This document shows positions 592 through 62,608 of a stretch of 64,000 nucleotides of DNA, one piece after another. The translations under genes were made by a program, and so were the position numbers. How positions within the stretch are numbered: the stretch's first letter is position 1; each line of letters opens with the position of its first letter. Source of the DNA: Phorcus lineatus (taxonomy: Eukaryota > Mollusca > Gastropoda > Trochida > Trochidae); NCBI GenBank assembly GCA_921293015.1, contig OV121092.1:31937764-32001763 (forward strand), in the 5' to 3' direction. The notes under the pieces are model-generated. The model ran no database searches. It was given only the letters and a program-made list of their open reading frames with translations, and was not told where the DNA came from.

Positions 592-1460
592 TCAAAACAA
601 ATCGAAAGGGTCTAAGAACATCCAAAGGTTATCGACGTTCAGTCCCTGTTGGCCGTATCCATTAGGGAATTGTCCATTGTAGTTTCCAACGTAGTTGTTA
701 GCGTACTGGGGAGACGATTGGTAGAAGTAGTTTCCTGACCCGCGGTTAAATATGCTTCTCCACAGTGCCTCGGAGGCTTGATTCCACCCGTTATTAGTTG
801 GATAGTAACCTCCTTGTCCTCCATACGGATTGTATGTTCCTGTATTATACGTCGGATATACTCCAGCACCGTTTCCATATCCATACCATCCACTCCCTCC
901 TCCAAGCCACGATCCTCCAGAAGTACCTCCTGAAGATGTGAAAGAACCACCATTTCCATACATTCCACTTCCGGTGCTTCCAACACTGCCAGTATTACTT
1001 ATTCCACCTGCAGACATTGTTCCGCCACCCATTGCACTGGTCGTTATGCCACTGTTTCCGCTATCAACAATCCCAGTACCAACAAATGCCCCAGCTCCAC
1101 CCGCTGTTGCACCTCCCGCCGAAGCTGACCCACCGCTATTTGCCCAACTGCCGCCACCAGTGCCTCCTGTACCACCAACACTTGTTCCTCCAACCCCTGC
1201 TGCCCCACCACCCAATGCAGTCATTCCTCCACCCCCTGATCCACTGGTTTGACCGCTTCCTGTAGGCAAGGTGTTGATTACAGGGTAAGATCCGGTTCCA
1301 GTTGTATCCACATTGACGCCACCCGATGATCCCGTGGAGCCAAGGATTGTGGGTAGAATAGCATCAGATACTTGAGCGAGACCAGCGCCAGCTTCGGCGT
1401 TTATGTTGTCGATTGATGCCTTTGTTCCTGCGATGTTTGCTGCTGCAGGACTCACCGCCT
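592..1460 (-). CDS. G1 main exon: secreted Gly-rich matrix-like protein
   Basis: Final coding exon of G1. It encodes 288 residues plus a Glu codon split across the intron (phase 1), giving a 306-residue precursor with the exon at 1871-1922. The acceptor TTTCAG ends at 1461. Order: a short Ala/Asp-rich start, a motif GSYPVINTLPTG that is also found in G2, then about 150 residues of Gly/Ser/Thr low complexity (GGGG, GGTGG, GGSW blocks), then a Gly-Tyr-Asn-rich region, then the tail LWMFLDPFDLF. There is no Cys and little charge outside the tail. The composition resembles silk-like or Gly/Tyr-rich extracellular matrix proteins of invertebrates. No catalytic domain is visible, so a structural secreted protein is an inference from composition and signal peptide. 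The exon is clearly GC-richer than its surroundings. An in-frame ATG at 1479 lies in the intron and is not the start. Confidence 0.85.
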
Positions 1461-1870
1461 CTGAAACCAAAATGTGCATCGTGTCATTACTGTCTTTAGT
1501 TTGATATCCACTAGTATCAGACTCTTATCTTTTTAGCCAGTCATTACATAGGTTTCTTATGAGAGGACAATGTAAAACATCTTCAAAACAAATATGTTAT
1601 TATATTCATGTGTGTAAGAAATTTGGGTTGAGTTTGGCGGTTCTGTACGAGTTGGTCGGGTTTGAATGCCGTGACTGCCAGATTGGCTGAAACATTGACT
1701 TACATAATTTCATGAAGGGAAACATATTCGTCTCTTCAAGCACAATAAAAAGTGATTTCAGATGACATGGCTAAATCCGGTTCTTCAAAATGCAATTAAT
1801 TTTACGCATAATCATTGTTTGTCTTAAAAATTCAATATTCTGACTACATACTTTCAAATGAATAACTTAC

Positions 1871-1922
1871 CAATAAGAAAGAGCCACACAGCAATTGGCA
1901 GACACGAATTGAAGCAAAACAT
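1871..1922 (-). CDS. G1 signal-peptide exon
   Basis: Coding part of the second exon (exon 1871-1934). It encodes 17 residues starting MFCFNSCLPIAVWLFLI, a short hydrophobic secretion signal, then one base (G) of a split codon. The donor is G|GTAAGT. The acceptor TTTTCAG ends at 1935, leaving 12 bases of UTR before the ATG. The phase-1 end matches the phase-1 start of the 592-1460 exon. It is too short to show as a long ORF and was found from the splice signals. Confidence 0.8.
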
Positions 1923-3055
1923 TGTGACCCTTATCTGAAAAATAACACATGCTTTGTATGTTAGCAATAAGAAATTTATATCCAAACGCATACTTGTTTT
2001 GAGGAAATAACTAATTATGATAAGATATGAAATCAATTGATAATTTAACCAATTAGGAATTTAGTTCAAACCCAACTATTAAATTATGCCATACCTTAAA
2101 GCCCTCGGAGTGTTGTTCTTTAAGGAAAATGATTAACAGTGTCTCAATGAAAACAGAAAAAAACTTACCAAAGAAATGTCAATCTCTATTTACAATGCGT
2201 ACTTGATATATATACAAAATTTCATGTAGTAACGTTAAAAAGTTATTTTGGCCCTGACACGAAAAGCCTTTGGGCAAGCATGCCATACGAAGGGATTGAC
2301 GCAGTAAACATTTATACCCTAACAAAAAGTTAATAAAAGGAGCAAAACTGATGTAGCAAGAGATGAAAGAATAACATAAAGTTTCTGTATATGTTTTACA
2401 AATATATAATGAAACGTATGAAGTTTCTGAGATGTAACACCTACCCCGTATACACTGGACGTATTCTACCGATAACTTAACAAAGCTGCCATTAAACATA
2501 TTTCATTACACGTCTATTCTACTTTAGTGATAACATGTACTTCGTGTATGATATCTGACAAAACTGCATTGGAATAGATATTTACCACTTTATATCTAAA
2601 CTTGACTCATTCTTTTAAACTTACAAACAACACGTCCTTTGCTTGTTTCAACTTGTCACACTAATTTAACAATTTGAAACAAAATAGATAATTGATAAAC
2701 AATTCTATTACCATAAGTTTCTATTTCCCGTTAGTTATCATGTTTAGCTGCTATATATTGGTCTTTGATAAAGTTTATCATTAATATATCCAATCATGAA
2801 ACTTATGAAAAATATCAAACACCATTTTATTTCTATGAGTACGTTCGTTGTTGTTCAAGTTGATGTACGGGATGATAAAATGTGCAAGAAGAAAAATGCA
2901 TTTCAAAAACTCTAGAAATATAAGTTTGACCAATGATATTCTACGTTTACAAACTGTGAAAGTATATCATATCATTGTAATCAATCAAAGAGACCGAGAG
3001 TACATATTTAACACTCTCAATTAAAATATGGTTAACATCAAACAGGCATTCTTAC

Positions 3056-3118
3056 CTAAATATCTTGTATGATGTCAGACAGCGAAAGACGAAGAAAAAA
3101 CTCGATCTCTTGTATATA
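3056..3118 (-). promoter_or_regulatory. G1 TATA box and non-coding first exon
   Basis: On the minus strand TATATA lies at 3118-3113. About 55 bases further on, a donor AG|GTAAG ends an exon at 3056. A start site near 3085-3090 would give a leader exon of about 30 bases, followed by a 1.1 kb intron to the signal exon. TATA plus a short leader plus a strong donor is the arrangement also seen for G6, G8 and G9. Confidence 0.55.
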
Positions 3119-6302: not shown

Positions 6303-8254
6303 TTACAATTCAAACAAATCTTCAAACAAAGACCACCAATTAATGGGACTGGAGTTACGACTTACACCCCGGCTTCCATATGTTTTATGTTGCAAATAGA
6401 GTTGGTAATATGGTACATTCTGACTCGAGTATCTAGAGTCTATGAACAAATGTTCGACGTTTGAACGCACGAATGTTCCTTGCGTATAACCAGAGTTATG
6501 CATTATCCCTAAATAATTAGGTTTTGCATTGTTTTGTAACTGTTGTTGAGGGAGAAAGCCTTTTGACGGGTTCATAAAATTTCTATACGTCGGGCCTTGA
6601 AATCTTCGGTATGGTATTCTGTAAGCGTTGTTATTGCTCTGATATTGGGGCCGAAAATGATGATAACTGATTTTGTTCGGATATGAAAATTGCCGTACAG
6701 GTGTACCCCTATGTCGATTTACTAAACCAAGTGGCCCATAAGATCTTTGAATATAGGTTATTGGATGTGAACGTTTTCGGATTTCGTCTGTGTGGATTCT
6801 TGGTTGACGTTTGTTCTGGAGGTATGGATCAGCCTGGCTTGATGATGACGGGATTCGTCCATACGTACGATATCCTGTTGATGTGGAAAATGGAGTTTTG
6901 TCTTGAAGAACACGGAATAATGGTTTTGAATGAGGAAAAGGAGTCACCATTTGTGTAGCTGGCCGTGGAATATATTGAAAACCGTCGGCAACACTCGCGT
7001 TGCTTATAACCCTTTGTGTTGTTGGAACACCTGTTTTCTTTCGTGTCCTTTTCTGGTTTTCATCGACGACGCTTTCACTCCTGAAATGCCTGGGAGTAAC
7101 TTTTGGATGATTATTTGCTTTAGGTAATGGTGACATTGTTGATGGTTTAAAGTTGTCAAAACTATGTTTTGCTAATTCCGCTGTTTTTGCTGTACCATTA
7201 TCTTGAATACTATTTGCTATGGTCAAAATGTCTGTAACACCGTATCTTTGATCATTGTTTTGTCCCTGATAGGGTTTCTGTATGACGTTTGTGTCGTTTG
7301 TTAAAAGTTCTGCATACACGGTTGCTTTTACACTATACACATTGCTTTTAACTATGGGTTCATTGCTGCCGACAACGGATATGGAAACAGAATTGTAATT
7401 GGCAGGTATTGATGACAAAGTAGATCCTCGGTACACGACGGTCTGAGGCGGTACAACAGGTCTCATTGTACTAGTATAGGTCGCCATCGGATCAGGTGAT
7501 AAAGTTGTTTTCATTGTCATTGGTGTCATAGTGGTCGACACATGCATTATCAAATTAGTATGTTTCAATGTTGTTGTTTGTCCAATAATTTGATCGGCCA
7601 CAGTAATATGATGATTACTTTTTCTGTTATTCGATAGTCGTTTTGTTGATTCATTCAGAGAAGAATGCGAAGTAGGATGTTCAATAAACACATCAGATGT
7701 CAGTGTTTTGGTTAAGTTATTTTCAATATTCAACCGAGTTGAATTTACGGTCGTGCTCTGATATTTGTAATGTTGGAGTGGTCGAATAGTAGTTGTGGAG
7801 GTTCTAACCATCCGTGGCTTCAATGTTGTTGGATATTTTGTCAATCTATTCACTTGTGTTGTCGAATTCGCTGCTGAACTGTCCATCTTGTTTTTCATTT
7901 GCTTGTAATATGTCGTCATATCTTTATTTGATGGTGTTGTATCCTCCGCCATAACTGCAGACGACTCTGCATCCAAGGCGTCATCAGCAAAGTTCATCGG
8001 GGGTCCATTTAAGAGGACGTTGATCACAGCATATGATCCACCAACCAATCTGTCGTTGTTAATCTGAAAGAAAGACCTCGGTGTTTTAGTTCCTTCGACA
8101 TACCCATATGAAGGTACTGCGTCAAGTGATGTTCCTGATGTTGATGACTTGGTTGGAGGCGAAGTATTGGACGAATACAGCTGGTCTGTTATTGGTTCCT
8201 CAGTTTTCATTCCTTTCTCGATTGTTCCATTAAGAATGACTCTACTTTCGTCAA
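6303..8254 (-). CDS. G2 main exon: large secreted Ser/Thr-rich, basic Tyr/Asn-rich protein
   Basis: Final exon of G2, 649 residues plus a split Val codon; the precursor is about 667 residues with exon 8476-8527. The acceptor TTTTACAG ends at 8255, and the frame stays open 14 codons upstream of the first ATG in the exon (8210), so the exon starts at 8254. Order: acidic start with VDESRVILNG; a segment with GGSYAVINVLLNG, matching GSYPVINTLPTG of G1; a long Thr/Ser-rich middle with many TTTL and TTLK runs and NxS/T sites, mucin-like; a C-terminal third rich in Arg, Tyr, Asn, Gln and Pro; and the tail INWWSLFEDLFEL. No Cys pairs or known enzyme motif are visible. A secreted, probably O-glycosylated structural protein is inferred. 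It is the longest member of the cluster. Confidence 0.85.
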
Positions 8255-8475: not shown

Positions 8476-8527
8476 CATCAATAAGTAAAGTCGATAACAC
8501 AATCACAGTCATCAATCTCAAATCCAT
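8476..8527 (-). CDS. G2 signal-peptide exon
   Basis: Exon 8476-8541, coding part 52 bases: MDLRLMTVIVLSTLLID plus one base (G). The donor is GATG|GTAATT and the acceptor TTGTTACAG ends at 8542. A hydrophobic core directly follows a basic residue. Phase 1 fits the TT start of the next exon, giving Val. The coding exons are separated by a 221-base intron. The non-coding first exon was not located with confidence; a weak candidate is a TATATTA run and a GTAAGT donor near 12.66-12.73 kb. Confidence 0.8.
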
Positions 8528-8625: not shown

Positions 8626-9098
8626 TTAAAGAGCCACTCCGTCAGTTGTTGGAGTCATATATGCCAAACTTTATCAATGATGTCATTTCATCGCGAAGTA
8701 TCGACTGTTACCAAACAGACACATTTTAAAGCTTACCGGGTTTTTTTACAGTGACAAAATGAAGGTCGAACGTAGCAATTATGATCGAAAACCGGACAGT
8801 GGTGCGCGTTAAAATCAAACGTAATTTTTGAGACCTATCTAAAACAGCCAGGAGGGCAGTTACGAGTTGATAGTGTTTGTTACGTTATATAACTATTATC
8901 CATGTATATTGGACGAGATATCTACACCTCTGTGTATTTATAAGTTTTTATATTTTCATGGAAAACCAGTATTTCTCATATATATGTCTTTTGGACATGA
9001 AAAGTTAAGATGTTTTGATTTTATATCACCACATATGACATTTAGATTCGTATCAAAGGTAAATGATATGTTATGAAAATCACGGAGTGGCTCTTTAA
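8626..9098. mobile_element. 473-bp TTAA-type MITE with 17-bp TIRs
   Basis: Both ends read TTAAAGAGCCACTCCGT inward, perfect over 17 bases and including a TTAA that may be the target duplication. There is no transposase frame, so it is a non-autonomous element (piggyBac-like by target site; an inference). A truncated inverted copy lies at 36390-36781 and shorter fragments near 31558 and 37775. The small plus-strand frame at 8867-9076 is inside the element. Confidence 0.8.
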
Positions 9099-11114
9099 GG
9101 ACCTATAGAGCCCCTATTGCGATTAACAATTTCTGAAAAGATTTTGATATAACAGACGAAAAGAGCGCGTCTATTACTCCTAAATAATTGATAGCTGCAT
9201 TATTGAACTTTCATTGTGTTACCTGTTGAAAATTAATTATCTTGTGTTTCTTCCCAAAACAAGATAATCAGAGAAAGTGACGTCATTATGCCGTAATTAT
9301 TTTACAATCAGCTTATTGAATGCACCTAAACCGCTCGTTGCTTCAAATCCTCGTTGCTTCAAATCTTATTTGCGTGCTATCTACAATAAATAAACTTCCA
9401 TCAGAAATACGATATATGTGCATATCTATATATCAAAATTTGCTCAAAAAATTTGAAAATATCTGACTAAGTAGTTTGGATCTCCCCTTTCTTTGACGTG
9501 CTTTTGCAGGCAGTCTCCAAGGAGAAAATGAGTTAATAGACGCCTGTGTTTAGAGTTTCAAGTACAGAATCAGGAGATATGTGCTGAGCATGCGATTGTT
9601 TAAAAGTTACATCGTTTAACATTTTTTTCAATCTTTAATTTGGTAACACACTTGTTCGTTTTGATTGTGTCACCTCATCAAACCGGAACCGTTTTCTGAT
9701 GACTCTTTTTAATTATTCACTAAAACCAACTGCTTCGTGACCAAGGACTTTCGTGAAGATATTTAGGTAGCATAATGTGACTCATTTGATAATATGATTG
9801 TTAAGTTAACTTCATATTCTAATCGTAAAAACTTCTGTTTATCATCAATTGAATTATCATAATCATATAAAGTTTTTGTCATATTTTCCTGGTTTGAATG
9901 AAGAAATGTTTCTTATTCTAAATTCATACGTAAAAATTACTACCGTTATGATACCGGACATGATTTACAATAAGTTACATCCGTGGTGAAAAGCTCATTA
10001 AGATTGGGTGTATGAAAACGCCCCGCCATTGAATCATAATCCTCTTTACGTCAACATGGTCACATGCTATGATGGTACAGTGCTTTTCAATGTCTCGAAT
10101 AAGGAGACTGTTGTCAACATATCGTATGGAAAATATTATTCAAATGTGTTGTATGATGTAAATGTGTAAGGAAGTGTAACGAAACATTGAGAAAAATTTC
10201 GTTGAACTATATTTGATATAATTACTCCTGCCTTATGTTATCTACATAAACAGTGGAGTGGCGTCATTTATATTAATGCCGTCGACTCGTTAAATCGTTT
10301 GATAAACCCAAACTGTGTTTTACAATTTTAGAGATATTGCATACAAACTTGCTATTTTAAAGAAAAGAAACATTATAATGATTAAATAACGTATTCGCCG
10401 AGTCCCTCAACCAGTACATCTATTTCTATTCTGTTATTGTGATGCAAGAGTGTGTTTATGGGTTTTTCGAGTGTTTCAAAGTCATAATTCAATAAAATAA
10501 TATTATTAACATTTAGATTTTTTTCAGGAAAATGAATGCAGAAAAGTAACGCACGGGTGAATTTTTTTTAAAAAGGTTGTGTTGTAAATAAAATCACTTA
10601 TATGACAATGTACAGAGGTATTAACTGACTTCTGATAACTATTACAGACGGTGTTCTGTACTAATCATTTAGTCATTCTAGAAGGCAACTCATCCAAAAT
10701 AAATAAAGATCACAACGTTTGGCTTCTTCTAAATTTGTGGAGTTATTCCTCAATATAAGCAATATTGAAAGGACGATGCGTCGTCGTGTTTTTAACTTCA
10801 AATTACGCTTGAACACAAACAATTACGTTTTGACAGTTTTCTCAACATACAAATATAGCGCCTATGAAAGTTTCAGACCTGAAAGTTACATTCAACCGCT
10901 ACAAATATCTTTCATTTCATCAGTTCTTTCATATGTTTTTTCATCATTTTTATTACAGCATAATTTTTTGTCGATTCATCGGAAATCTAGCAGTATCCGA
11001 TATTCTACAATAAAACTCCGGTTTACAAAGCACAAAAGTTGCAATTTTTTCATTTGGAAATTCGTGTCGTTTCTTATGTTGAAACCTTTTGAGCAAATAC
11101 ATCAGTTTTACGTG
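9099..11114. other. Spacer upstream of G2, no gene seen
   Basis: AT-rich DNA. A plus-strand frame at 10719-11159 runs into the next repeat element and shows no coding signature. No splice-consistent exon recognised. Confidence 0.4.
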
Positions 11115-11748
11115 TACAGCTGCATACCGAAAGTTTGTTCACTTATCAATGAATCGTAGTGCAAATATCATGTAATTTGGGTTTCGTTTCAACGTCAATA
11201 GAAAAACTTCAGACAGACTGACAATTGATCACCCACTGTCCATGTGTGAAATAGCCATTCTTGAACTCATTTTGGCATTGTCTTGTCACTCGTGCAAAAC
11301 TTCAAATTTTGGCATATTGATATAGACAAAAGGGGTCACATTTTCGAAATTTCGATTTCGTTAAATGTCGAATAAAGTTTTCCATATCGACCCTCTGAGA
11401 TTAAAACCAATATAATCACATTGACTTTGTGCAAAGGAACAGACATGACTAATTTTGATAGTTTGAAGTTGATAACTTATAAAGGATTTTATGGAGAAAA
11501 ATAAAAAATAGTGTTTTGGGAATTATGACCCCTGGTCACTTCAATGACCTGCCAAAACTGTTACGGGTAATTGTGGGGTACGATAAACCTTTGCCTTAAA
11601 GAAGAATTGATCTGCATATTTGTATTGAAAATTCAATATTATACGTTTCTTTTTCGCAACGCTACGATACCTCAAAGGCATCTCAAATTACATGATATTT
11701 GCACTAGTATATTCAGGTATGTGAACAAACTTTTGGCACGCAGCTGTA
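11115..11748. mobile_element. About 634-bp TIR element (copy 1)
   Basis: The left end TACAGCTGCATACCGAAAGT and right end ACTTTTGGCACGCAGCTGTA are imperfect inverted repeats. Similarity continues inward through GTGCAAATATCATGTAATTT, for about 60-70 bases per arm. A second copy in the opposite orientation lies at 51894-52524. Terminal TA dinucleotides fit a Tc1/mariner-type target, which is an inference. No transposase. Confidence 0.8.
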
Positions 11749-13880
11749 TATCGATAGTATAGAGACGAAAGAGGTGTTTTATAGAACTTACCAAAAATGG
11801 ATTTTTGCGCGCTGAAACCCATTTCATTTTGGAGATTCCTGATAGTAATATTTGAATCTACGAATATTGTAACATCGAGCTTTGCTAATAACTTGGATGA
11901 TCATATGGACTATATTTAAACATGTCATGAAACAGCGAACCCGTTTAGCTGGAAGTACATAAACCAATAATCAAAATAAAGATAAGAAACACCAACGTCA
12001 CATATCACAGACTTCAATACAGAGTCTATCATAATGGACTTATTCAACACGACATCAAAACCATGCAAATGTTTCTAAATGTGTTGACGTTATAATGAAT
12101 TGTGTCCATATTCTATTCTCTTGGTCAACGGGGTCTGATGGCGTTAGTAATGACATTTCAATAAAGTAACGAACTCTCTAAGAAGATATTGGTAGATGAC
12201 ACGTGTTTAGGTTTTAGTGATCCATACAGTGTTTGCCTGCTGTAAGTCAAACAAACCAACATTCAATCACAACTCTTATGACCTAATTCTTTCCACCGTA
12301 GGAAAGAAACAGTCATCTGCACTGATTTCCGTCATTATGTTCATTTGATCAGTGACTGTTAACATGTGAAACTTGACAGCTGTGCGATTAATGTCATTCT
12401 GCTATCTTCATATTTCATTAAAGGGTACCCAAATCAAAATATCATCGGCGTAAAATTATTTTTCAAGTGAGTATGCATCTTAATTATGGTATTACATTTT
12501 CTTCTCAATGTTCCCTAGATAGAAATATGCAGCAGAGCTTTATTGTATGTAAGTGCAAGATTCTAACATAAAAAATGTTTGAAATCCAGTAGCCCTTTCC
12601 TGTTACTCAACGCATTTTCGATTAAAAATATTAAGAAATAATATAACACCAAGAACATAGTTTACTTACATACAAATGAACGTTCCACCCGCAAATGCTA
12701 TGCTATAGATAAGCCATATCCATAATATACTCTGACCTCCCTGAACAGTTCAGACGTGACACTACCCGTGACAAGTTAACAGTGAAATTAAAATTGATAT
12801 TCGTCACGCGTTGTATACATTCAATACAAATGTCACCACACACAAAATGCCCATTCACATTGCACATTCCTTTGACGTTCACACAGGGCGAGTTTTCATC
12901 AAGTGCAGGGGAAAGTTATTCGTTATTGCAAACGTTGCAAAACGGTACCATACAATTATTTTTAAAAAATCAAGAGAAAATGAATAACTGTCTGTTTTAT
13001 TCTTATAATTAGCGTTTGTGACGTGGTTCATTTTGGATAGGGATCAAGGTATACAACTTCATTGAAATTCAAAATATTGCATACGAAGTTTTACTTTTTG
13101 ATAATGACCATGAATATTTGTATAGAAGTTGCTTAGAAATGATATTACATGCATTTATAGTATATGGGCCTGAGGCCTTGAATGCAATAAACAATCTTTG
13201 ACTTTTGACTATAGATAAAAATAATCTAATATTTATACAATGGTATGGTGACTTAAAGTATCTTTCATAGAAATTGACTTAGTTTGATGAGTGCAAAATA
13301 CAATATCCTCTAAATTGCTATATATTCAAGTTAAATCATTGCACATGTACTTGCTTATATAACTCAAAATACAAAATATGTAATAGTCAGCAATTACAAT
13401 CTATCTGTTACTCTTTAACTTTATCTATATAATTGTTTCTGACTATATATTTCGTTATCATCCTAGTCCTAATTATTATCATTATAATAATGAAATTATG
13501 CCTTCTTCTGAAGAAGCCTGTCTGTCTAGGAAAACATATTAATAACAAATTAGTCTAGCTTATAAAACTTACATTCGATTTATTAACACTATCAAATGAA
13601 TATCATTGTATGCCCATGCATGGAAACACATATTTCTTAACAGCTAAATTCACATTTTATGAAAGTTTACCTCCTTGTGCATTTTAGTGCAATAATGATA
13701 TAATCTGGGATGCACTAGAAGCATTGAAGAAAACAGTTTTCCTTTGCAATGAAGCTGTATAATAACATGATTTGATACATCTATGTAAACTGAAAGAGTT
13801 TCGATACTTGTTGAACTGAATAAGAATAAAAGATTCGACAACTTTATAGTCTACCGAAAGAAATGAACTACGTTAATTAT
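11749..13880. other. Spacer between TIR element and LINE fragment
   Basis: No gene supported. At 12.66-12.73 kb the minus strand has a TATATTA run followed about 65 bases later by TGTAT|GTAAGT, which could be a distant leader exon for G2, but nothing confirms it. Confidence 0.35.
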
Positions 13881-15356: not shown

Positions 15357-15766
15357 TTAAAACCAATCTGAATCCATCATAAGAGCCCAAGAAGGATTAT
15401 AGCTAGGTGCATAATAGGACGAAGCGTATGGATTGTAGTTGTTCACAGGTGGCCGATACGGGACTGGAAAACCAAAGGTAAGTCCCCAAAGTGCATTCCA
15501 AGTTCCTTGTGAAGACTTATCAGTACGGGTGGAGACTACAGGAACTGAGTTATCTTTACGAGCAGTTGCTGAATCATAAGGATTAGGGTATACCACAGTG
15601 CCAGAAGAAACTGTCTTTGGCGTGAGCGTGAAGCTTGCTGTGGAAGGATTCCACCTCATATCCACAAGTGATGTCATTGTGTTTGGATCAACAGACTGCA
15701 GGAATTGGTAGAGCTGTGTGTCCCCATTCTGTGAAGTCGGTCCATTGACAGCCATAGCTGAGGTTT
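15357..15766 (-). CDS. G3 main exon: small secreted protein with Tyr/Pro-rich end
   Basis: Final exon of G3, 135 residues plus a split Glu codon; the precursor is about 157 residues. The acceptor ACATTCCAG ends at 15767. The first ATG in the exon (15755) is internal, and the frame begins three codons earlier with TSA. Order: polar start with LYQFLQSVDPNT; a middle with alternating Thr/Val (SFTLTPKTVSSGTVVYPNPY); a Trp/Phe/Pro segment (NALWGLTFGFPVPYRPP); a Tyr/Asn/Ser region (NNYNPYASSYYAPSYNP); and the tail SWALMMDSDWF. No Cys. The function is unknown. The layout and acidic-aromatic end place it in the same family as G1 and G2, although this tail lacks the FD pair. Confidence 0.8.
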
Positions 15767-16843
15767 CTGGAATGTATTTTATTTTGGTTTTTATATTATC
15801 ATGTCATATTTCACAAGTGAGAATATCCTTGTTTGTTCATAGATAGAAAATGTGTCGTAAAAGTAGTGATTACCAGTCAATGCACTTTCAGTGCGTCATA
15901 TTTGAAGAACTGAAATCAAAACTGTCGATACAGTAGCGAAATGTCTGTAACGTTACATATCATTTAATCCAATGATCAAAACTTCTGGCATATATTAATC
16001 AAGACATTTCCCTAGAGATTCATTTCAGCATTTAATCGCTTACATGCGATCGATATCAAGCAATACATTATTTTACGACTGAAGTATCTGAATGTAAAAA
16101 ACGCTTTGGTTACTGAACATGTTTTCTATCATGTGTCAAATAGACACTGCATGAACAATACGGTTCATAAAAGCTTTTCCTTTTAACTTTGATGCACCCC
16201 AACAAAGGTTATCTATGCTCCTTTCAAACACAAGGTGATTCATTAAATTCCTGAAAAAGACAGGCTTTATAGTTATCATTCTGTTGGTACAAAAACTGTG
16301 TAAAATTCGGCACTTCCTTTTCTATGCCCTCGTTGCGAACGTTTGTTAAAAGAAAGTCTTGTTTGAAGAATTGTGGATATTCTTTGAGCAATATATGTAA
16401 AAATGCTTTAACTATTTGCAGGATTGAATATTATCAAATTCAAATACCAGCACAGATGCAACTATTTTGTATTTACGTTAAATAGAAAGTAGTAGAAATG
16501 TTTTTTAAAGTTGAAAAAACATTGTTCTTATATATTCATCAAAAGAGGACTTAATTAAACAAAGAATTCTTTGAGTTTGTCCCACTTTATAATTTTATGA
16601 CAATATCATTTATATTTTTTCTACCTTCTTCTCTCTAAACTATAAAACCTGTCAAAAGGTTTCAAAGGGTCGTTAATGACACAACATCCCAATATAAGGA
16701 ACTAAAGACGTTTATTCAAATGAGTCTTTAGCATTATCACTAAGGTGCTTGTTTATCTACAAATGCTTCAATATGGGTACTGATAGTGTTATTCGCTGCA
16801 CTAAGAATTGCAGAGAAAGTAAATGCATTCATTTGGAACTCAC

Positions 16844-16907
16844 CTTGGCTGTGTAGTAATAATGTCCACTGCATTACAAGCAGGAGAAGAGAGAGGAAAG
16901 AATTCAT
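16844..16907 (-). CDS. G3 signal-peptide exon
   Basis: Exon 16844-16910. It starts MNSFLSLLLLVMQWTLLL and runs to HSQ, then one base of a split Glu. The donor is AAG|GTGAGT and the acceptor GTGTTACAG ends at 16911, only 3 bases before the ATG. A typical signal peptide with a Leu-rich core. The intron to the main exon is 1.08 kb, phase 1. Confidence 0.85.
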
Positions 16908-17061
16908 TATCTGTAACACATGATCATACAGACTATATATATTTGATATTCCTTATACAAAGGTACGTAGAGGTATTCATTAAAAGATAAAGTCTCAATA
17001 ACAGTATCTAAAAATATAAATACAGTCATTGAAGACTTAGAAACTATTTGCACAAACTTAC

Positions 17062-19371: not shown

Positions 19372-19871
19372 TCATGTGTCAAAGAAATCGTTTTCTCCAT
19401 TATATGGCTTTAATAAAAGGAACCGAACGTAATATAAATACATCAGTCTCGCCTGTCTTTCCCATGAACTCATGTAGTAATTTGCTTGAATATTGCGATA
19501 GTTCCTACTTGGTAAGAGGTAAAAATAGGGGTTTTGTGATGCCCATAATCTTCTTTGATCATGATATTGCCCATTAATTAGTGTTTGTCCAATTGGATTT
19601 TGTAATGGTATCTGTTTTGATGTTTGATCTGCAGTTCCAAATGTAGTTGATGGATTCAAGGTGGATGGCGTTGATGTTGTTTGAACAGTGTTGATTTTAT
19701 CCGTGACCAATGGCGATATAATAGTTGTTGATTGGAATGATGGTGTTGGTGATTGGAATGGTGATGTTGATGATTGGAAAGTGTTCTCTGAGACATTCGC
19801 TGTAACCTCCTCCGCTTTATCAAACAGTTGGTTCAATATGTTCTGTATTGATGATGACACTCCAAAACTAA
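19372..19871 (-). CDS. G4 main exon: secreted Ser/Thr/Pro-rich protein with basic aromatic end
   Basis: Final exon of G4, 165 residues plus a split codon (T|TT, Phe); the precursor is about 184 residues. The acceptor CTGTTTCAG ends at 19872, so the exon starts four codons before an internal GTG. Order: SFGVSSSIQNILNQLFDKAE, a short possibly helical start; a Ser/Thr/Pro linker with three FQS repeats and TTSTPSTLNPSTT; QYHDQRRLW, resembling QYQHQPRLL of G5; an Arg/Tyr/Asn-rich stretch (NYRNIQANYY); a Tyr/Leu-rich run (YLYYVRFLLL); and the acidic tail NGENDFFDT. No Cys. Probably a mucin-like secreted protein and a paralogue of neighbouring G5; the function is unknown. Confidence 0.8.
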
Positions 19872-20259: not shown

Positions 20260-20314
20260 ATATCGTCGGCAAAAGTAGATGTACAATAAACATTGACCTC
20301 TTTAATGTAACCAT
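20260..20314 (-). CDS. G4 signal-peptide exon
   Basis: Exon 20260-20316. It encodes MVTLKRSMFIVHLLLPTI plus one base (T). The donor is ATAT|GTAAGT and the acceptor, with a long pyrimidine tract ending TTCTTCAG, stops at 20317, two bases before the ATG. A basic n-region followed by a hydrophobic core, as in G5. Phase 1 joins to TT of the main exon to give Phe-Ser-Phe-Gly, a plausible cleavage region. Confidence 0.8.
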
Positions 20315-20614
20315 TTCTGAAGAACAAGAAGAAAACAAATGCTTCATTATATCACTACTGTCGTTATGTATTGTACAGTGTGATACAGTGTATACATAAT
20401 TGATTATTTACCAATGGAAGCTCATTTAATTAAGAAAATATGACTAGAAATAGTTTTGGAAAAATATTAGTCAAACGCACCCAGAGATTACTTAAATTGT
20501 GTTGTCTAGAGACAAAACCAGTCAGATAATACCTGATTTTAAAAAATAACCTGATCAATTGGAAAATAGCATTTTAAAAATGTTGTTATGATTTATAAGT
20601 AAAATAAATCTTAC

Positions 20615-20731
20615 CTGTTGTTTAACAGCATAACCAAGGGAGGGGCAGTAGTTGTAGTACGCGTAGTATCCGGTATCCGAAGTACATGATGGGGGGTCAA
20701 CAGGGTGACAAACTGTGCCTTTAGCTTTTCC
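20615..20731 (-). CDS. Orphan candidate exon, Tyr/Cys-rich
   Basis: A 117-base block bounded by an acceptor (AATGACAG, ending 20732) and a donor (CAACAG|GTAAGA). In phase 0 it gives exactly 39 codons without a stop: GKAKGTVCHPVDPPSC, then TSDTGYYAYYNYCPSLGY, then AVKQQ, with three Cys. It cannot sit between the G4 signal and main exons, which need phase 1. It may be an exon of an unseen or dying gene, an alternative leader exon of G4, or chance. The GC content is higher than in the surroundings. Confidence 0.35.
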
Positions 20732-21016
20732 CTGTCATTATGATATGAATTAAACACATGTACATATCCCTCAAAATGTCATGAAGAGCTTATATCCAAC
20801 AATTATAAATTTTTACAATCTATCTTAGGTTGTGTTGGTGACAGGTGGATAATATCAGGTTCTTACAGTGTTGTTCAAAATTCTATTTTAATGTACATTA
20901 TCTCATCCCATCCCCTATAAAACTGAATTCATTACATCGATATTTGTGCAACTCTGTTCTTCAGTATTCATTTAAGTATTCTATGGTACATAATCTGCAT
21001 ATGAATATTTACTTAT

Positions 21017-22055: not shown

Positions 22056-22579
22056 TTAGACATCAAACATGTCTTCAATTATATACTGACTGTAGAAAGA
22101 ATATAGCAGATATCTTATTTCATTCAGGCGGTGAATGAAGTTGATGTAGTTGCGGTTATACTGGACATAATATGTATCGATAACTCTAGGGTAGTGATAA
22201 AACAGTCTGTTCAACAATCTCGGTTGATGTTGATATTGTGATGACATTTCGTCCCTGTATGGAAAATATATTCCTGCGTGTCCTTGCGTAGTTGTTCTTC
22301 TTTCTGGGTATGGATGTGAGTTTTCAGGAGTCGGAGTAGTTGGCGGTACATAGGATGATGTTGTTTGTGGATTTAACGTTGTAGCAAGAGTAGACGGTGA
22401 TGATGGCGGTCGTGATGTTGGTGATGTTGGAGTCGGTTGTGTCGATTGGGGTGATGGTGGTTGTGTTGATGGTGGTAATGGTGGTTTAGACGTTTGCTTA
22501 ACATCACCAGGGTCCTTAGCATTATTGAAGTCAATAGCATCCGTATCAGTTAATCTTCCTTCCGCTATCCGCACGGAAA
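22056..22579 (-). CDS. G5 main exon: secreted Pro/Ser/Thr-rich protein with acidic tail
   Basis: Final exon of G5, 173 residues plus a split codon (A|TT, Ile); the precursor is about 195 residues. The acceptor TGATTACAG ends at 22580, so the ATG at 22589 is intronic. Order: SVRIAEGRLTDTDAIDFNNA, an acidic start; a 60-residue Pro/Ser/Thr linker with PPSTQPPSPQSTQPTPTSPT; QYQHQPRLL; an Arg/Tyr/Asn-rich segment (YYVQYNRNYINFIHRL); a Tyr/Leu run (RYLLYSFYSQ); and the tail YIIEDMFDV. No Cys. It shares the order of blocks and the QYxxQxRL motif with G4, which points to an old tandem duplication. The linker is a likely O-glycosylation region (inferred). The function is unknown. Confidence 0.8.
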
Positions 22580-24068: not shown

Positions 24069-24132
24069 TTATGTGCAATACTATCCATGTTATTAAAATC
24101 CGTTTTATAGGTTTTCCGTGAAGTTTGAACAT
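24069..24132 (-). CDS. G5 signal-peptide exon
   Basis: Exon 24069-24149. It starts MFKLHGKPIKRILITWIV and ends LHI plus one base (A). The donor is ATAA|GTAAGT, and the acceptor TTTTTCTAAGCTCAG ends at 24150. Basic n-region and hydrophobic core. The phase-1 intron is 1.49 kb. The main uncertainty is distance; a nearer candidate at about 22842-22892 was rejected because its phase and its GC donor do not fit. Confidence 0.7.
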
Positions 24133-27023: not shown

Positions 27024-28165
27024 TTAAAACATATCTAAAAATGCATACATGAAGTATGAATCCAAGGGATTCTGATAGGGATTCCAATATTGCTGCTGCT
27101 GTTGATAATAAGGATAGTACTGGGTGTAGTGATTTCGTACTTGAAGCTGGTAAATTTGATCCATTATCGTCTGCATTAAAAGAGCTTGTTGATTCAGTGC
27201 ACCTCGTGTATTCTGATATCCACCTCTATTGGATGTACGTGGGGGCATGTACCGATTGCCTCCAGTTGTTGCATATGCTGGCTCGTTTAGTGGTGGAGTT
27301 GTTGTTGCTACCCGGTTAGCTTCAATTGCAGGCGCCGTTGTTTCCGCTGCGTTGTTAGCTGGGCTTGTTGTGTATCCTGCGTAGGCTACTTGGGTTGTTA
27401 CTGCATCAGTTGTTGGCGTCGTTGTTTCTTCCGCGATAAATGAAGGGGTTGTTAATTCTTCTGCGATAGCTGCTGGTGTTGTTGTTTCTTCTAAGATAGC
27501 TGCTTGGGTTGTTGTTTCTTCTGCTACAACTGCTGGGGATGTTGTTTCTTCTACGATTGCTGCTTGGGTTGTTATTTTTTCTACGATAACATCTGTGGTT
27601 GATGTTTCTTCTGCGATAACATCTGTGGTTGTTGTTTCTTCTGCGATAACCGCTGGGGTTGTTGTTTCTTCTGCGATAACCGCTGGGGTTGTTGTTTCTT
27701 CTGCGATAACCGCTGGGGTTGTTGTTTCTTCTGCGATAACCGCAGGGGTTGTTTCTTCTGCGATAACTGCTGGGGTTGTTTCTTCTGCGATAACTTCCAT
27801 GGTTGTTGTTTCTTCAACGATAACTGCTGGGGTTGTTGTTTCTTCTACGATAACCGCTGGGGTTGTTGTTTCTTCTGCGATAACTGCTGGGGTTGTTTCT
27901 TCTGCGATAACTGCTGGGGTTGTTGTTTCTTCTGCGATAACTGCTGGGGTTGTTTCTTCTGCGATAACTGCTGGGGTTGTTGTTTCTTCTGCGATAACTG
28001 CTGGGGTTGTTTCTTCTGCGATAACTGATGGGGTTGTTTCTTCAACGATAACTGATGGGGTTGTTGTTTCGTTTGCGTTAGCTGCTTGTGTCGTAGTGTC
28101 AGCAGCTGGAGTAAGACCAAGTATATCACTAACCTCGTCTTCCGTCACAGCTTCAGCTACTTGTC
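27024..28165 (-). CDS. G6 main exon: secreted Thr/Glu repeat protein
   Basis: Final exon of G6, 379 residues plus a split Gly codon; the precursor is about 400 residues. The acceptor ATATCTTCAG ends at 28166, so the ATG at 28184 lies in the intron. Order: acidic start QVAEAVTEDEVSDILGLTPA; 22 tandem units of 9 or 10 residues, consensus TTTPAVIAEE; a Thr/Ala-rich stretch; a basic segment (YMPPRTSNRGGYQNTRG); an amphipathic Gln/Met run (LLMQTIMDQIYQLQ), comparable to LLLQRQIMQNSMQ in G9; a Tyr/Gln-rich stretch; and the tail SYFMYAFLDMF. The repeat carries about one acidic pair and two to three Thr per unit, so it could be an extended glycosylated or cation-binding spacer (inference). No Cys. 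It is the only member with a regular acidic repeat. Confidence 0.85.
27405..28080 (-). repeat. Coding minisatellite of G6 (27/30-bp units)
   Basis: Twenty-two head-to-tail units of 27 or 30 bases, differing by one Thr codon. The central units are nearly identical; both ends, especially the 3' coding end (TTQAAIVEE, LTTPSFIAEE), have diverged. This is the normal pattern of an array that expands from its middle. The unit length keeps the frame, and the antisense strand is also open, which explains the long opposite frame there. Confidence 0.9.
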
Positions 28166-28613
28166 CTGAAGATATTTTGACCAATGAAAGATAAGGTTTT
28201 TAATATGGAATCATGATTTAATAACGAGAAATTATGTTTAAAAAGTTGAATATTAGGAAAACGTTTAAAAGAAAAAAAAAATCAAATAAAGCGCTATTTC
28301 CTCTTTAAGCATTTTTCTTCAAGACTATTGTCTTACTTCATTCATTATTTCCTCTTATGAAGGTAACGTAATATTTCGAAAACATGTTTTTTTTAAAATT
28401 TGATGATAGTAGACGACGTTCAGCATAATGAGCATATCAACTGCTTTTCATCATCAAGGAAAACACATCATTAAACAATCTAAAATTTCCTTTCACGGAA
28501 TAAGCCTTATGTTCACCATTTATCACAGGCTTTTTATTGATGCGTGACAAGTAACAAGAATAATGACAATTATGTTAAAGTAAATATTTGAATTAATCTA
28601 ATAGTTAGATTAC

Positions 28614-28674
28614 CATAAAACGAAACCAAAAGCAAAACTGTTCCGAAATAGAGCACTCTCCGTGAGGGAACCAT
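28614..28674 (-). CDS. G6 signal-peptide exon
   Basis: Exon 28614-28682. It encodes MVPSRRVLYFGTVLLLVSFY plus one base (G). The donor is TATG|GTAATC and the acceptor TTCTTTTCAG ends at 28683. A textbook signal peptide with an Arg pair before a hydrophobic core. The intron to the main exon is 448 bases, phase 1. Confidence 0.85.
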
Positions 28675-36389: not shown

Positions 36390-36781
36390 CTTAACATCTT
36401 AACTATTCATGTCCAAATGACATATATCTCACAAATACTGGTTTTCCATGAAAATCTAAAATCAGCCTTATAAATGCACAGATCTCACGTCCAATAAACA
36501 TAGGTACAAGTTATATAACAAAACAAACACTATCAACCCCTAACTGCCCTCCTGGCTGTTGTAGATAAGTCTCAAAAATTACGTTTGACTATTTGCCGTG
36601 CGCTACTCTCCGGTTTTCGATCATAAGTGCAATGTTCTACCTTTTACTATTGTCACTGTAAAAAAACAACCAGCTTTACAACGTGTATTTTTGGTAACAG
36701 TCGATACTTCGCGATCCAATGACACCATTGTTTACGTTTGGCATATATATGTCTCCAACAACTCACAGAGTGGCTCTTTAA
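36390..36781. mobile_element. Truncated inverted copy of the TTAA-type MITE
   Basis: Matches the 8626-9098 element in reverse orientation, ending in ACTCACAGAGTGGCTCTTTAA at the right. The outer 80 or so bases of the other end are missing. Divergence is moderate. Confidence 0.75.
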
Positions 36782-50870: not shown

Positions 50871-51893
50871 AAGGTTTACAACATCCATATGAATATGGAA
50901 CGTATATGTAGGTGGATCCAGAGGTTAATACGATAGGTCATCGTTGATGCATTGTAGATGACACAGCTTTATGGTAGTCGGACATATTACAATGTGACCT
51001 TTAGGTCATATGTTAACATCAAGGTTTGATTATTTACACGACATGTGTTAGCATATTTTACATAACCGCTTTACAGCATGTTTAACACCTTTTGTAGGTA
51101 GATTTTTGGCTAAGCTGATATGGTTTATGGTAATCAATCACTCAAAAGGATAACAATTATAACATACATTAACATTCCTATGAAGTTTATTCTTAGTTTG
51201 ATGCTTTGACGTGAATTTTGATAATGAGATAATGGTATTAATACAAATTTGATAGATCATTTATCCAACGTTTTATTTAGGATAAATCATGTTTAACTCT
51301 TATCTTATCGAATAAACATTTGACTTGTAACTTTAATTTCAAATGTGGACATTGATTTATTAGTCAGACTGATTAAGAAATTAGAACCACCTTTATAATT
51401 GCTTTATATTTCAATGTTTTATTTCCTGTCTCGTTTATCACAACAATAGGTTATTTCCTTAAAGCCCTGCCGTCATGCCATTGAAGGAATCTTGCTTTCA
51501 CTATTGTTGCTGGCAATTGATGTGGGTTTTTGTGCTCACTAGCCGAAGTACAGAATGAACTGTTATCCAGATTATACTCTCTTATAGAGCAAATGATAAA
51601 GGAGAAGCGATGGCAGAATTAATATCTTAATCTCCACTTCAGATATTATAACCAAATAATGTTATTAACAATTGTATCACCGGATTAGTTGACTTATAGC
51701 ATATAGGAAATCAAATGTGACTACATCAGTTTTGGCCTATAAGGTCAGTGTGTCATTATGGCGACATCCATCATCGGATACATATTCTTGTAGTTGAAGA
51801 CATCTCGTGTTAATCTTATTTAACATTCTGTATTGTTGTCTGGCTATCCTAAGAGACGTATGTAAGATTCCAACAACTCAGTTCATCAATTCA

Positions 51894-52524
51894 TACAGTT
51901 GCACGCCAAAAGTTTGTTCACAAACCTGAATATACTAGTGCAAATATCATGTAATTTGAGATGCCTTTGAAGTATCGTAGCGTTGCGAAAAAGAAACTTA
52001 TAATATCGAATTTCCAATACACATATGCAGATTCATTCTTCTTTAAGCCAAATGTTTATCGTACACCCACAATTACCCGTAACAGTTTCTACAGGCCATT
52101 GAAGTGACCAGGGGTCAAAATTCCGAAAACACTAATTTTTATTTGTCTACATAAAATCCTTTAAAAGTTATCAACTTTTTTAAAAATTAGTCACGTATGT
52201 TCTTTAGCACAACGTCAATAAGGTTAGGTTGGTTTTAATCTCAGAGAGTCGATATGAAACATTTCATTTGACATTTAACGAAATCGAAATTTCGAAAATA
52301 TGACCCCTTCTGTGTATATCAAAATGCCAAAATTCGAATTTTTGCACGATAGACTAGAAGATACAAAAATGAGTTCAAGAATGGCTATTTCACACAAGGA
52401 CAGTGGCTGATCCTTTGTCAGTTTTGCTGAAGTTATTCTATTAACGTTGAAACGAAACCCAAATTATATGATATTTGCACTACAATTCAGTGGTAAGTGA
52501 ACAAACTTTCGGTATGCAGCTGTA
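51894..52524. mobile_element. About 631-bp TIR element (copy 2, inverted)
   Basis: Reverse-orientation copy of the element at 11115-11748. Its right end, read on the minus strand, is TACAGCTGCATACCGAAAGT, the same as the left end of copy 1. Similarity runs end to end with scattered changes. The terminal inverted repeats are intact. Confidence 0.8.
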
Positions 52525-53445
52525 TATCTAATGTCAAAATTGGATTTGTTAAACTTAGTAATTATATTGACTATTTTAAAAACTTCCAAAGCTTTCTCAA
52601 AGTTTCAATAATTACCAAAAAACTTCAGTAATCGATATCTTCTTACGTACAAACCAATATCAACAGATGTAAGAAAAACTGAGTGCGAAGAAGGCACCAA
52701 GAATAACATGTATGTTAAACTGACAGTTAATTATACGACTTTTCACATATGAGGTATATGTATGCATGTTTGAATGACATCTAAAGCAGTTTCGGCATAC
52801 TATAGGAGGTTATTGAACTAACGTAATAAAAACCGTGTATCTGTATTTTGAAAATGTGACATCTGGATATCATGTTTATAGAAACCTGAGTGACGGATGA
52901 TAACTTCCGTCTTTTATTGTCATCAACTTAATCAATCTATAAAAGAAAACGAGACAGAAATTACGTTTGTGGTAGCAAATTGATTTTCGTATTAACATTT
53001 ACAGAACTTTTGACTATAGATATGAGTATATATCATGTCATGTAACCATAACTACGTTATAGCTTTTATAGTTCAGTTAAATACCAAATCACTAGAGCAC
53101 TATGTCAATTAATGTACACTAAAGCGGGGTAAATATAATTTAATAACAAATGTCATATTGTTTTGCATATATGACATCGAAATGGTGATGGTCATAAAAT
53201 GTTCGCGACTGATGTTAACTTGTCTTCAGATTAGGAGAGAAAGTGTTCTACACTGCCTAAAAGAGTCTGTACCTCAGAAGACGTAAAGTGCCTACACAAA
53301 TATTAGCTCGTAATTATGAAACGATAAGAGATTTCGTATACAAACCAAGACGCTTCAAAAAAGACATTCACTATAAGATCTTAGGTGGCAAGGCATTCAG
53401 TGTTTAAGGAAATGAAATAGTTGCATAATTATTTCTGTTTGCATC
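52525..53445. other. Between two TIR elements, no gene seen
   Basis: AT-rich spacer; nothing supported. Confidence 0.4.
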
Positions 53446-56872: not shown

Positions 56873-57060
56873 TTAGTAGGTTGAAGCGAAATCATATGAT
56901 TTTTGCAGCATGTAAAGGATAGCCTCTAATCCAAATGCTTTAGCTTTAGCATATTCATGGACTTTCGTCAGAAATTCTCGAGTTTGACGATGCTTGGTCC
57001 CATCTTTATCCAGAGTTTCCTCGAGTTCACGCAGCATGGACCGAAGTGTATCATCTGTAA
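56873..57060 (-). CDS. G8 main exon: small secreted charged helical peptide
   Basis: Final exon of G8, 61 residues plus a split Val codon; the precursor is 88 residues. The acceptor ACATATTTTCAG ends at 57061. The sequence is TDDTLRSMLRELEETLDKDG, TKHRQTREFLTKVHEYAKAK, AFGLEAILYMLQKSYDFAST, Y. It is rich in Lys, Arg, Glu and Asp with Leu spaced as in amphipathic helices, with no Cys, Pro or low-complexity tract in the exon. It differs from its neighbours in composition and lacks the acidic-Phe tail (ends SYDFASTY), yet has the same three-exon layout and phase-1 intron. It could be a peptide hormone-like, antimicrobial-like or matrix accessory peptide; nothing in the sequence decides this. AATAAA lies 53 bases after the stop. 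Confidence 0.8.
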
Positions 57061-57861: not shown

Positions 57862-57940
57862 CTGCTGGCATCGGACGAACCACGTTTATCATTACGCACA
57901 GCATAGCAACGGTGAGGATAACTTTGGTAAGTCCGGACAT
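57862..57940 (-). CDS. G8 signal-peptide exon
   Basis: Exon 57862-57960. It starts MSGLTKVILTVAMLCVMI and ends NVVRPMPA plus one base (G). The donor is GCAG|GTATGA and the acceptor CATGTCTAG ends at 57961. Cleavage is likely after VVRPMPA or within it. Phase 1, 801-base intron to the main exon. Confidence 0.85.
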
Positions 57941-61087: not shown

Positions 61088-61272
61088 TCACATGCCCATG
61101 TCGAATCCATCCATGAGAAAGAACCAGGGAGAAAGTCTGAAAGAGTTCTGCTGGACAGGCTGTGGTCTGTTGTACATGTTCTGCATGCTGTTCTGCATTA
61201 TCTGTCTCTGTAGCAAGAGACTGTATGGGGACAGTGGGGCTCCAGTGTGGGACATAGGGTTCGTAGCTTGAC
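61088..61272 (-). CDS. G9 main exon: minimal member of the acidic-tail family
   Basis: Final exon of G9, 60 residues plus a split Gly codon; the precursor is 86 residues. The acceptor CGTTTTAAG ends at 61273; it has an AAG terminus, a little weaker than the others. The sequence runs QATNPMSHTGAPLSPYSLLL, QRQIMQNSMQNMYNRPQPVQ, QNSFRLSPWFFLMDGFDMGM. It is Met/Gln/Asn-rich, with LLLQRQIMQ comparable to LLMQTIMDQ of G6, and ends in the clearest tail, WFFLMDGFDMGM, next to WMFLDPFDLF of G1. There is no Thr- or Gly-rich spacer, so it shows the conserved end region almost alone. The function is unknown. Confidence 0.8.
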
Positions 61273-62144
61273 CTTAAAACGAAAATAATGACTGATTTAC
61301 ATAATATGTATTGGACAGAACAAGTTAGGAAAATTGTATCTTATGTTATCTTATCAGATTATCGAAATATGCATCATTGTGCATTATTTATATTTTTGAC
61401 TTTTTATTTGCTTATACATAATCGTTCTCTATAAAAGCTAACTTGTCGCAGTCTTAGTCCCTGGCATGAATCAAATGAATGAAATATTGGATCTGGTTGT
61501 TATTTTACTAGCGCTTCTATTCCGATTCATTGTTTGTTTAAATTTGAATATTATACAAAAAACTTGGAAAATCAAATACCGTACAGGAGACTTGCGACTA
61601 CAATAACATTCCTAGTTCTCACTTTTAAGAGTTTATTGTGTACATATTCAAGGTGGTATAGGTTTTCGATTTGGGTTCCTTCCTAAAGAAACAGATAATT
61701 TACGAAAATACCATCAAATCAGTTTAAAATTAATGAAATTGCAATTTTCTTAACTTTTCAGCTAAAACAAGAGATGTAATCATCGTTTAACGCCACTGAT
61801 AAACAGATCAAACTTATTTTCAGTATATAAACATAACGCATACTGTCAGTAATTGAATTAATTATTGGACCTCGCGTTTCTCCTTTTAATTAGTATGTAT
61901 TCGTACAAACAGTGTCGCACTGTTACGATTACATTTAATATGAAGGACAAGGATCATATAAATGTTATCGTATGTATTAAAGCTTCTTTAGTGTGTTGTA
62001 AGGGAAATTCATGGACTCATTTACATGGAGTGAATTAGTCACATGGTGGAATCATGAAAAACATGATGACGCAAAAGCTTATAAGGTTCGAGAAACTATT
62101 CCCTCAAGTATTGTAGGTCTTGCAGATTGAATTGAAAAGCTTAC

Positions 62145-62220
62145 CTGTGTACATAGATTGAACTGTGCACGTGATGGCCAGGAAAGCCAGAAGCACAATG
62201 CTTGAAGTTTGGAAAGACAT
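62145..62220 (-). CDS. G9 signal-peptide exon
   Basis: Exon 62145-62241. It starts MSFQTSSIVLLAFLAITC and ends TVQSMYT plus one base (G). The donor is ACAG|GTAAGC and the acceptor TTGCTACAG ends at 62242, with 21 bases of leader before the ATG. The cleavage site is probably near TVQS. Phase 1, 872-base intron to the main exon. Confidence 0.85.
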
Positions 62221-62539
62221 GTCTGCCACTTGAAGTTGAATCTGTAGCAAATCAGTATACAAAGCTGAGAGCATGTTCAAATTCAAATTCTTGTTTAAGA
62301 ATCGCAATATTCAATTACTTCAAATCAATATAATAAATCCTGTAGGTGGTATTGTTTTCGAGAGAAATTAGTTCAAAAAATGACTCAGATACAATATATC
62401 AACTATTCATCACAGAAGAGGAACTGTTACAAAATATCCACCGTCACCATGGAAACTTTCATAATTGTAATAGAAAGTTGATGCTACAAGCGGCTCAACG
62501 AAATAGAGAATCGGGCAAAAGGAAGTTAAGTTTACTTAC

Positions 62540-62608
62540 TATATTGTAACGTTGATTCTATGTTCAAATCCTCAGTGAAATGGTAAACCCTTTCCCCTCT
62601 ATTTAAAG
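62540..62608 (-). promoter_or_regulatory. G9 TATA-like box and leader exon
   Basis: On the minus strand CTTTAAATAG at 62608-62599 is followed about 60 bases later by the donor AATATA|GTAAGT, ending an exon at 62540. The start site is expected near 62575. The leader intron is about 0.3 kb. Confidence 0.6.

Follow-up and report, generated by a model that had tools for sequence, protein, structure and literature searches.

A stretch of 64,000 nucleotides from the gastropod Phorcus lineatus (contig OV121092.1 of the GenBank assembly GCA_921293015.1, positions 31,937,764 to 32,001,763; this whole stretch is referred to below as the window) contains nine predicted genes for secreted proteins, designated here g1 to g9, all located on the minus strand between positions 592 and ∼62607, that is, within 62 kb. 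In our estimate, there is an even chance that these genes represent a tandem family of secreted structural (matrix) proteins that are devoid of cysteine and combine a variable spacer and a Tyr-rich segment with a constrained tail that would guide their packaging and co-assembly. The typical order of elements is a signal exon, a variable spacer, a Tyr-rich neutral-to-basic segment, and an acidic-aromatic tail; in g9, the tail is present and there is hardly any spacer. The products of g1 to g6 and g9 are probably old paralogs, while g7 and g8 may be either tail-less paralogs or unrelated neighbors. The evidence comes from the gene models, from the complete absence of cysteine in the encoded protein bodies, and from two features of their C-terminal parts, an acidic-aromatic end and a Tyr-rich segment in front of it. 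The coordinates of all the exons are listed in Table 1.

Gene models

A signal-peptide exon followed by a protein body encoded in a single exon could be modeled explicitly for eight of the nine genes (g1 to g6, g8, and g9), with predicted proteins of 306, 667, 157, 184, 195, 400, 88, and 86 amino acid residues (aa), respectively. In these eight genes, the signal exons are 52 to 79 nt long, and every one of them ends in phase 1 with a GT donor; the next intron spans 221 to 1,489 nt and ends with an AG acceptor, after which the single body exon remains open to the stop codon. The first-pass annotation had assigned a phase-1 signal exon and a one-exon body to all nine genes, which holds for eight models and does not extend to g7, where no convincing separate signal exon was found: such an exon is marginal at best, as judged by eye, and a plausible signal peptide, MHNVLSISYMFSVAALA, is encoded within the body exon itself, starting from the ATG at 41525. 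Since a phase-1 acceptor-like sequence is present inside this open reading frame (ORF), with its AG at 41490-41489, g7 could have lost its intron or its signal exon could have been missed. An AATAAA or ATTAAA sequence is found within 600 nt 3' of the stop codon in eight of the nine genes, the exception being g6. Because the bodies of g8 (61 aa) and g9 (60 aa) are short, the coding status of these two genes is less certain.

The window, whose G+C content varies from 31 to 37% in 4-kb steps, contains 12 ORFs of at least 148 aa, as compared to a mean of 0.225 and a maximum of 2 such ORFs in 40 second-order Markov shuffles. Seven of these ORFs, 148 to 656 aa long from stop to stop, contain the bodies of g1 to g7. 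The remaining five include a 155-aa ORF overlapping g7, a 269-aa ORF antisense to g6, a 149-aa ORF that covers g9 in a different frame, a 184-aa repeat array, and a 150-aa ORF at 10707-11159. Hydrophobic ATG exons that end in phase 1 and are preceded by a 3' splice site were found in eight instances on the minus strand and in two on the plus strand (null mean of 1.05 and maximum of 3 in 20 shuffles). Six of the eight minus-strand exons belong to the genes of the cluster and two (at 25009 and 8588) do not; g3 and g9 were not retained by this filter despite their hydrophobic starts. When the splice-site requirement was dropped, the two strands looked alike (13 exons on the minus strand versus 12 on the plus strand), which means that these exons would not have been conspicuous by themselves.

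A candidate TATA-like box located 57 to 183 nt ahead of a donor site was predicted for g1, g3, g6, g7, g8, and g9. The first-pass annotation had suggested a TATA-like box and a short noncoding first exon for at least five members. Weaker candidate pairs were seen in g5 and, by eye, in g4. The TATA-donor pairs listed for g2 all fall in a repeat that is also present at 36388-36748 and are doubtful. The two copies of this dispersed repeat (8657-9019 and 36388-36748) are in opposite orientations and are 87 to 89% alike, and the first of them immediately precedes the g2 signal exon, in the place where the promoter would be expected.

Absence of cysteine

There is not a single cysteine among the 2,231 residues of the nine bodies. 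Cysteine makes up 3.7% of the other ORFs of at least 60 aa in the window (n = 137), and just 5 of these 137 have none, although the comparison is with ORFs that are mostly noncoding and fewer cysteines are to be expected anyway in bodies of such biased composition, so that a Poisson estimate cannot be accepted at face value. Read in its other two forward frames, the body DNA yields 50 cysteines in 2,142 residues and 78 in 2,114. Outside the bodies, cysteine is present in the signal peptides of g1, g8, and g9. This evidence is carried by the long bodies.

The acidic-aromatic tail

By eye, the last ten residues are acidic-aromatic in seven proteins, those of g1 to g6 (Table 1) and g9 (FLMDGFDMGM, with WF ahead). 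In these seven, the last ten residues have a net charge of -1 to -3, and the tail contains no Lys or Arg. The ends of g7 (QGANFYRRIS) and g8 (QKSYDFASTY) are different. An ungapped motif search with one site per protein, run on eight proteins with g7 left out, yielded scores of 250, 250, and 248 in three settings; in each setting, these scores were reached by none of 120 composition-keeping shuffles and by none of 120 sets of internal windows. The outcome was the same in a smaller run (16 shuffles and 12 internal sets).

In a leave-one-out test, each gene was ranked among 811 other ORF ends with a profile built from the other tail-bearing genes (g1 to g6 and g9). Values of p < 0.02 were obtained for five of the nine genes, namely, g1, g2, g3, g5, and g9 (Table 1); the nine tests share their training genes and are therefore not independent. 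A regular expression modeled on these genes matches 8 of the 394 ORF ends on the minus strand and 8 of the 426 on the plus strand. Six of the eight minus-strand matches are genes of the cluster, with g4, g7, and g8 being missed. A looser composition rule (no Lys, Arg, or His, at least one acidic residue, and at least two aromatic residues in the last nine positions) picks up six of the nine genes, all except g7, g8, and g9, along with other ORF ends, for a total of 43 out of 820, genes included.

The tyrosine-rich segment and composition along the proteins

The 70 residues ahead of the tail in g1 to g6, the genes included in this test, contain 56 tyrosines, whereas 25.4 ± 3.9 would be expected by position and the maximum seen in 5,000 draws was 40. 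In the same six proteins, the 60-residue stretch that precedes the last ten positions has a charge of 0 to +6, which is neutral to basic. The front parts differ in their composition: Thr and Ser together make up 22 to 33% of the fronts of g2, g4, g5, and g6, the front of g1 is 32% Gly, and that of g7 is 31% Asn and Gln. By eye, g8 is not of low complexity.

The Thr- and Ser-containing fronts, together with the 30-nt repeats in g6, could also be expected of mucin-like or glandular secretions serving in defense or lubrication, in which O-glycosylated Thr/Ser/Pro-rich spacers would form a gel and not a solid material. Classical gel mucins polymerize through disulfides, and these bodies have no cysteine to form disulfide-linked polymers; besides, neither the Gly-rich g1 nor the Asn/Gln-rich g7 is mucin-like. 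We regard the mucin-like alternative as improbable. A structural role in an extracellular material would fit the composition of these proteins.

Possible kinship of the members

That the members share almost no sequence, as had been stated from the initial inspection, is true as far as pairwise alignment goes, which finds nothing; the statement misses what they do have in common, that is, the lack of cysteine in all nine bodies, the tail in most of them, and the Tyr-rich segment in g1 to g6. The proposed origin by tandem duplication with rapid divergence gains support from the same three features for five to seven of the genes, while the intron pattern alone is insufficient for it. In animal genes that encode signal peptides, phase-1 introns are reported to be in excess near the cleavage site, which is attributed to proto-splice sites at glycine codons and, with reference to other authors, to exon shuffling (PMC1626468). 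Given this general excess, the shared phase-1 signal intron is weak evidence of kinship.

The same general rule is what one would invoke if the genes had only their setting in common, i.e., if low-complexity secreted genes had been independently born in, or recruited to, a single locus, such as a glandular enhancer domain, and their tails were hydrophobic-acidic ends that had converged. In line with such a scenario, the phase-1 excess at signal-peptide cleavage sites is general (PMC1626468), the bodies do not align, and four of the nine genes fail the tail test. Set against it are the five genes that pass this test, the lack of cysteine in all nine bodies, and the location of all the genes on one strand. 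A shared setting alone appears rather unlikely.

Several observations weigh against treating the nine genes as a single family. Four genes (g4, g6, g7, and g8) fail the leave-one-out test, and the motif search placed its best sites in g4 and g8 elsewhere than at the terminus. The tail motif had been spotted before it was tested, the regular expression was derived from the genes themselves, and short acidic-aromatic ends could arise by convergence. Pairwise alignments of the C termini are near chance (the best of the 36 pairs, g1 and g8, has z = 3.0). No 8-mer is common to at least five of the eight upstream regions compared (g2 left out), so these candidate promoter regions have no words in common beyond chance. 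The layout of g7 is reversed, its Tyr-rich part being at the front instead of the end. Finally, 57 of the 368 other ORFs of at least 45 aa are also free of cysteine, and therefore its absence is hardly informative for g8 and g9, both of them short, when these are taken alone. One further candidate relationship, that of g4 and g5 as recent duplicates, was rejected (alignment E value of 0.40), which likewise counts against the family.

The small size of g8 and g9 (both under 90 aa) and the helical appearance of g8 to the eye raise the question of whether these two are precursors of peptide hormones or antimicrobial peptides with no relation to the other members. Their bodies have no dibasic cleavage site, though, and g9 ends in a significant tail (Table 1); the precursor assignment appears distinctly improbable.

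No DNA repeat of at least 60 nt connects the genes, so any duplications that gave rise to them must be old. Inspection by eye of the 57 cysteine-free ORFs revealed no further members in the gaps. Those at 28570-28743 and 16740-16952 include the signal exons of g6 and g3, respectively, and the one at 20611-20778 partly coincides with the exon-like segment ahead of g4 that is described below. A scan of the window for a phase-1 acceptor followed by a cysteine-free run to the stop codon returned three other sites (5789 on the minus strand and 23589 and 53617 on the plus strand), none of which has a tail.

Searches for homologs were performed with g3, g8, and the body of g2. The g3 search produced 63 candidates, none with an E value of 0.01 or below; the g8 search produced 5, none at or below 0.1; and among the 8,000 candidates scored for the g2 body, none reached 0.01. 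None of the nine proteins matched a Pfam family above the cutoff, with subthreshold matches seen for g6 and g8 only, and ten other ORFs of the window likewise gave subthreshold matches only. A PDB search, made for g8 only, had a best E value of 0.44.

Possible mode of action

In the family interpretation, cohesion would be achieved without disulfides, through contacts of aromatic and of charged residues, perhaps supplemented by the cross-linking of tyrosines. The variable front, be it Gly-rich, Thr/Ser/Pro-rich, or Glu-rich, could be a spacer that is free to evolve and determines how hydrated and how stiff the material is, and the Tyr-rich neutral or basic segment would supply cohesive, cross-linkable residues. 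The tail would be the constrained part. It is the part most alike in the comparison and therefore probably meets a common partner, most likely either a receptor involved in sorting or, in the sister proteins, the basic Tyr-rich segments. Such binding would allow different proteins to be packaged and deposited together without disulfide bonds. The mechanism of the tail is the least certain step of this scheme; by analogy, it might be a C-terminal counterpart of the motif recognized by Surf4, which is offered here as a hypothesis.

A more specific version holds that the whole locus descends from one ancestral gene and that its products have kept only their ends, namely, the signal exon and an acidic-aromatic address tag of 7 to 10 residues, along with a ban on cysteine; by means of the tag, disordered proteins that look unrelated would be sorted and co-assembled into one material, their middles being almost free to change. 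This version is put forward tentatively, as a possibility that we consider doubtful on balance.

Individual genes and other features of the window

TABLE 1 Exons predicted for the nine genes, with promoter signals, composition, and leave-one-out P values of the C-terminal tails
Feature	Coordinates	Strand	Remarks
g1 body exon	592..1460	-	Gly-rich, then Tyr/Asn-rich; tail WMFLDPFDLF, p = 0.0037
g1 signal-peptide exon	1871..1922	-	Ends in phase 1; predicted TATA 2316, exon-1 donor 2168
g2 body exon	6303..8254	-	649 aa, Thr/Ser-rich; tail WSLFEDLFEL, p = 0.0099
g2 signal-peptide exon	8476..8527	-	Ends in phase 1
g3 body exon	15357..15766	-	Tail WALMMDSDWF, p = 0.017
g3 signal-peptide exon	16844..16907	-	Ends in phase 1; predicted TATA 17138, donor 17061
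g4 body exon	19372..19871	-	Tail YNGENDFFDT, by itself not significant, p = 0.24
g4 signal-peptide exon	20260..20314	-	Ends in phase 1
g5 body exon	22056..22579	-	Pro/Ser/Thr-rich, then Tyr-rich; tail QYIIEDMFDV, p = 0.0049
g5 signal-peptide exon	24069..24132	-	Ends in phase 1
g6 body exon	27024..28165	-	30-nt repeats coding for TTPAVIAEE-like units, then Gln/Tyr-rich; tail YFMYAFLDMF, by itself not significant, p = 0.14
g6 signal-peptide exon	28614..28674	-	Ends in phase 1; predicted TATA 29008, donor 28825
g7 Gln/Tyr-rich ORF, 333 aa	40524..41525	-	Predicted TATA 42051, donor 41930; C terminus GANFYRRIS, no acidic tail; p = 0.052 (nonterminal match)
g8 body exon	56873..57060	-	Short, helical by eye; tail weak or none, p = 0.16
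g8 signal-peptide exon	57862..57940	-	Ends in phase 1; predicted TATA 58334, donor 58275
g9 body exon	61088..61272	-	Short, Met/Gln-rich; tail WFFLMDGFDMGM, p = 0.0062
g9 signal-peptide exon	62145..62220	-	Ends in phase 1; TATA-like 62607, donor 62539

The body of g6 includes ∼23 copies of the 30-nt unit (27414-28086); the antisense reading frame of 269 codons found here is probably no more than a by-product. Downstream of g6, at 26453-26697, a 123-nt unit occurs twice in tandem with 95% similarity, and a more distant copy is located near 25943. Upstream of g4, the minus-strand segment 20615-20740 resembles an exon, with an acceptor and a donor, and can be read through in two frames, one containing cysteine (KGTVCHPVDPPSCTSDTGYYAYYNYCPSLGYAVKQQ) and the other rich in Thr; it may be part of the first exon of g4 or of another gene.

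Several repeats are found elsewhere in the window. An element of ∼640 nt with imperfect terminal inverted repeats, resembling a miniature inverted-repeat transposable element (MITE), is present in two copies in opposite orientations (11115-11749 and 51893-52531; 87 to 92% complementarity). Approximately seven 81-nt units at 34713-35272 are open in one plus-strand frame for 184 codons and have Pfam matches below the cutoffs only. The segment 32455-33862 contains direct repeats spaced by 647 nt, with two identical 300-nt copies and a third, shorter copy that is 88% alike; by its sequence, it is a recent tandem duplication. For a 22-base piece of a repeat that occurs at two places in the window, a search of viral and genome contigs, which cover viruses and prokaryotes, found no exact match. 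Searches of the window with Rfam, at gathering scores, and with ARAGORN, using the bacterial code, found nothing.

Comparison with known systems

Among the closest known parallels are the vertebrate genes for secretory calcium-binding phosphoproteins (SCPP), whose introns are in phase 0, in contrast to the phase-1 ends of all eight signal exons described here. The SCPP genes descend from SPARC-L1 in vertebrates; for the present cluster, the searches made with three of the proteins revealed no relative. Ser-X-Glu sites occur just twice in the nine bodies, once in g2 and once in g4, no more often than in shuffled sequences. According to PMC4373244, in SCPP genes the signal peptide is encoded in exon 2 in all cases, and the Ser-X-Glu motif, which is not enriched here, is present in most of them. 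Both systems are tandem clusters in which a large exon is variable; in the present one, the signal exons modeled for eight of the nine genes would be the second exons if the predicted exon 1 is real. Because of the intron phase and the lack of Ser-X-Glu sites, the cluster was not filed as SCPP, and the distinction from these genes drawn in the first-pass annotation holds.

Among mollusks, the families of the pearl oyster (Shematrin, N19, and others) likewise form tandem clusters, comparable to the nine genes found here on one strand within 62 kb, but they are recognizable by sequence, whereas the bodies of g1 to g9 do not align. Shematrins have a Gly-rich body and a conserved basic C-terminal motif; judged by this description only, they differ from the present cluster, in which g1 alone is Gly-rich and ends with an acidic-aromatic, not basic, tail. 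Tandem families of shell matrix genes are well described in the pearl oyster (PMC4759782), and a Pif/LamG3 gene cluster is known in oysters (PMC10543319). Low-complexity secreted proteins are a recognized feature of the mollusk mantle secretome and resemble the proteins described here in being fast evolving, secreted, and of simple composition (PMC4897951). The combination of a signal peptide with biased, repetitive sequence and no known domain, typical of this class, is seen in the present proteins as well, with g8 as an exception by eye. The class is defined by composition and is not a single locus.

That matrix proteins can be moved with the help of a short motif at one end has a precedent in the ER-ESCAPE motif: Surf4 is described (PMC6097701) as reading the three residues with which mature amelogenin and DSPP begin and as aiding the exit of such aggregation-prone matrix proteins from the endoplasmic reticulum (ER). 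That motif is located at the mature N terminus, in contrast to the C-terminal position of the tail in the present proteins. No tail-bearing cluster of this type was described among the literature matches listed, most subscription journals being outside their scope. Clusters of fast-evolving genes for secreted proteins are thus a known kind of locus, while the hidden common tail and the ban on cysteine may be new. Fast-evolving matrix proteins usually appear as orphans. If the combination of the tail, the cysteine ban, and the Tyr-rich segment ahead of the tail does identify a family whose middle parts are no longer recognizable as related, it could serve to join orphan matrix genes of other animals into families, and removal or exchange of the tail would provide a direct test of which parts a structural protein has to retain.

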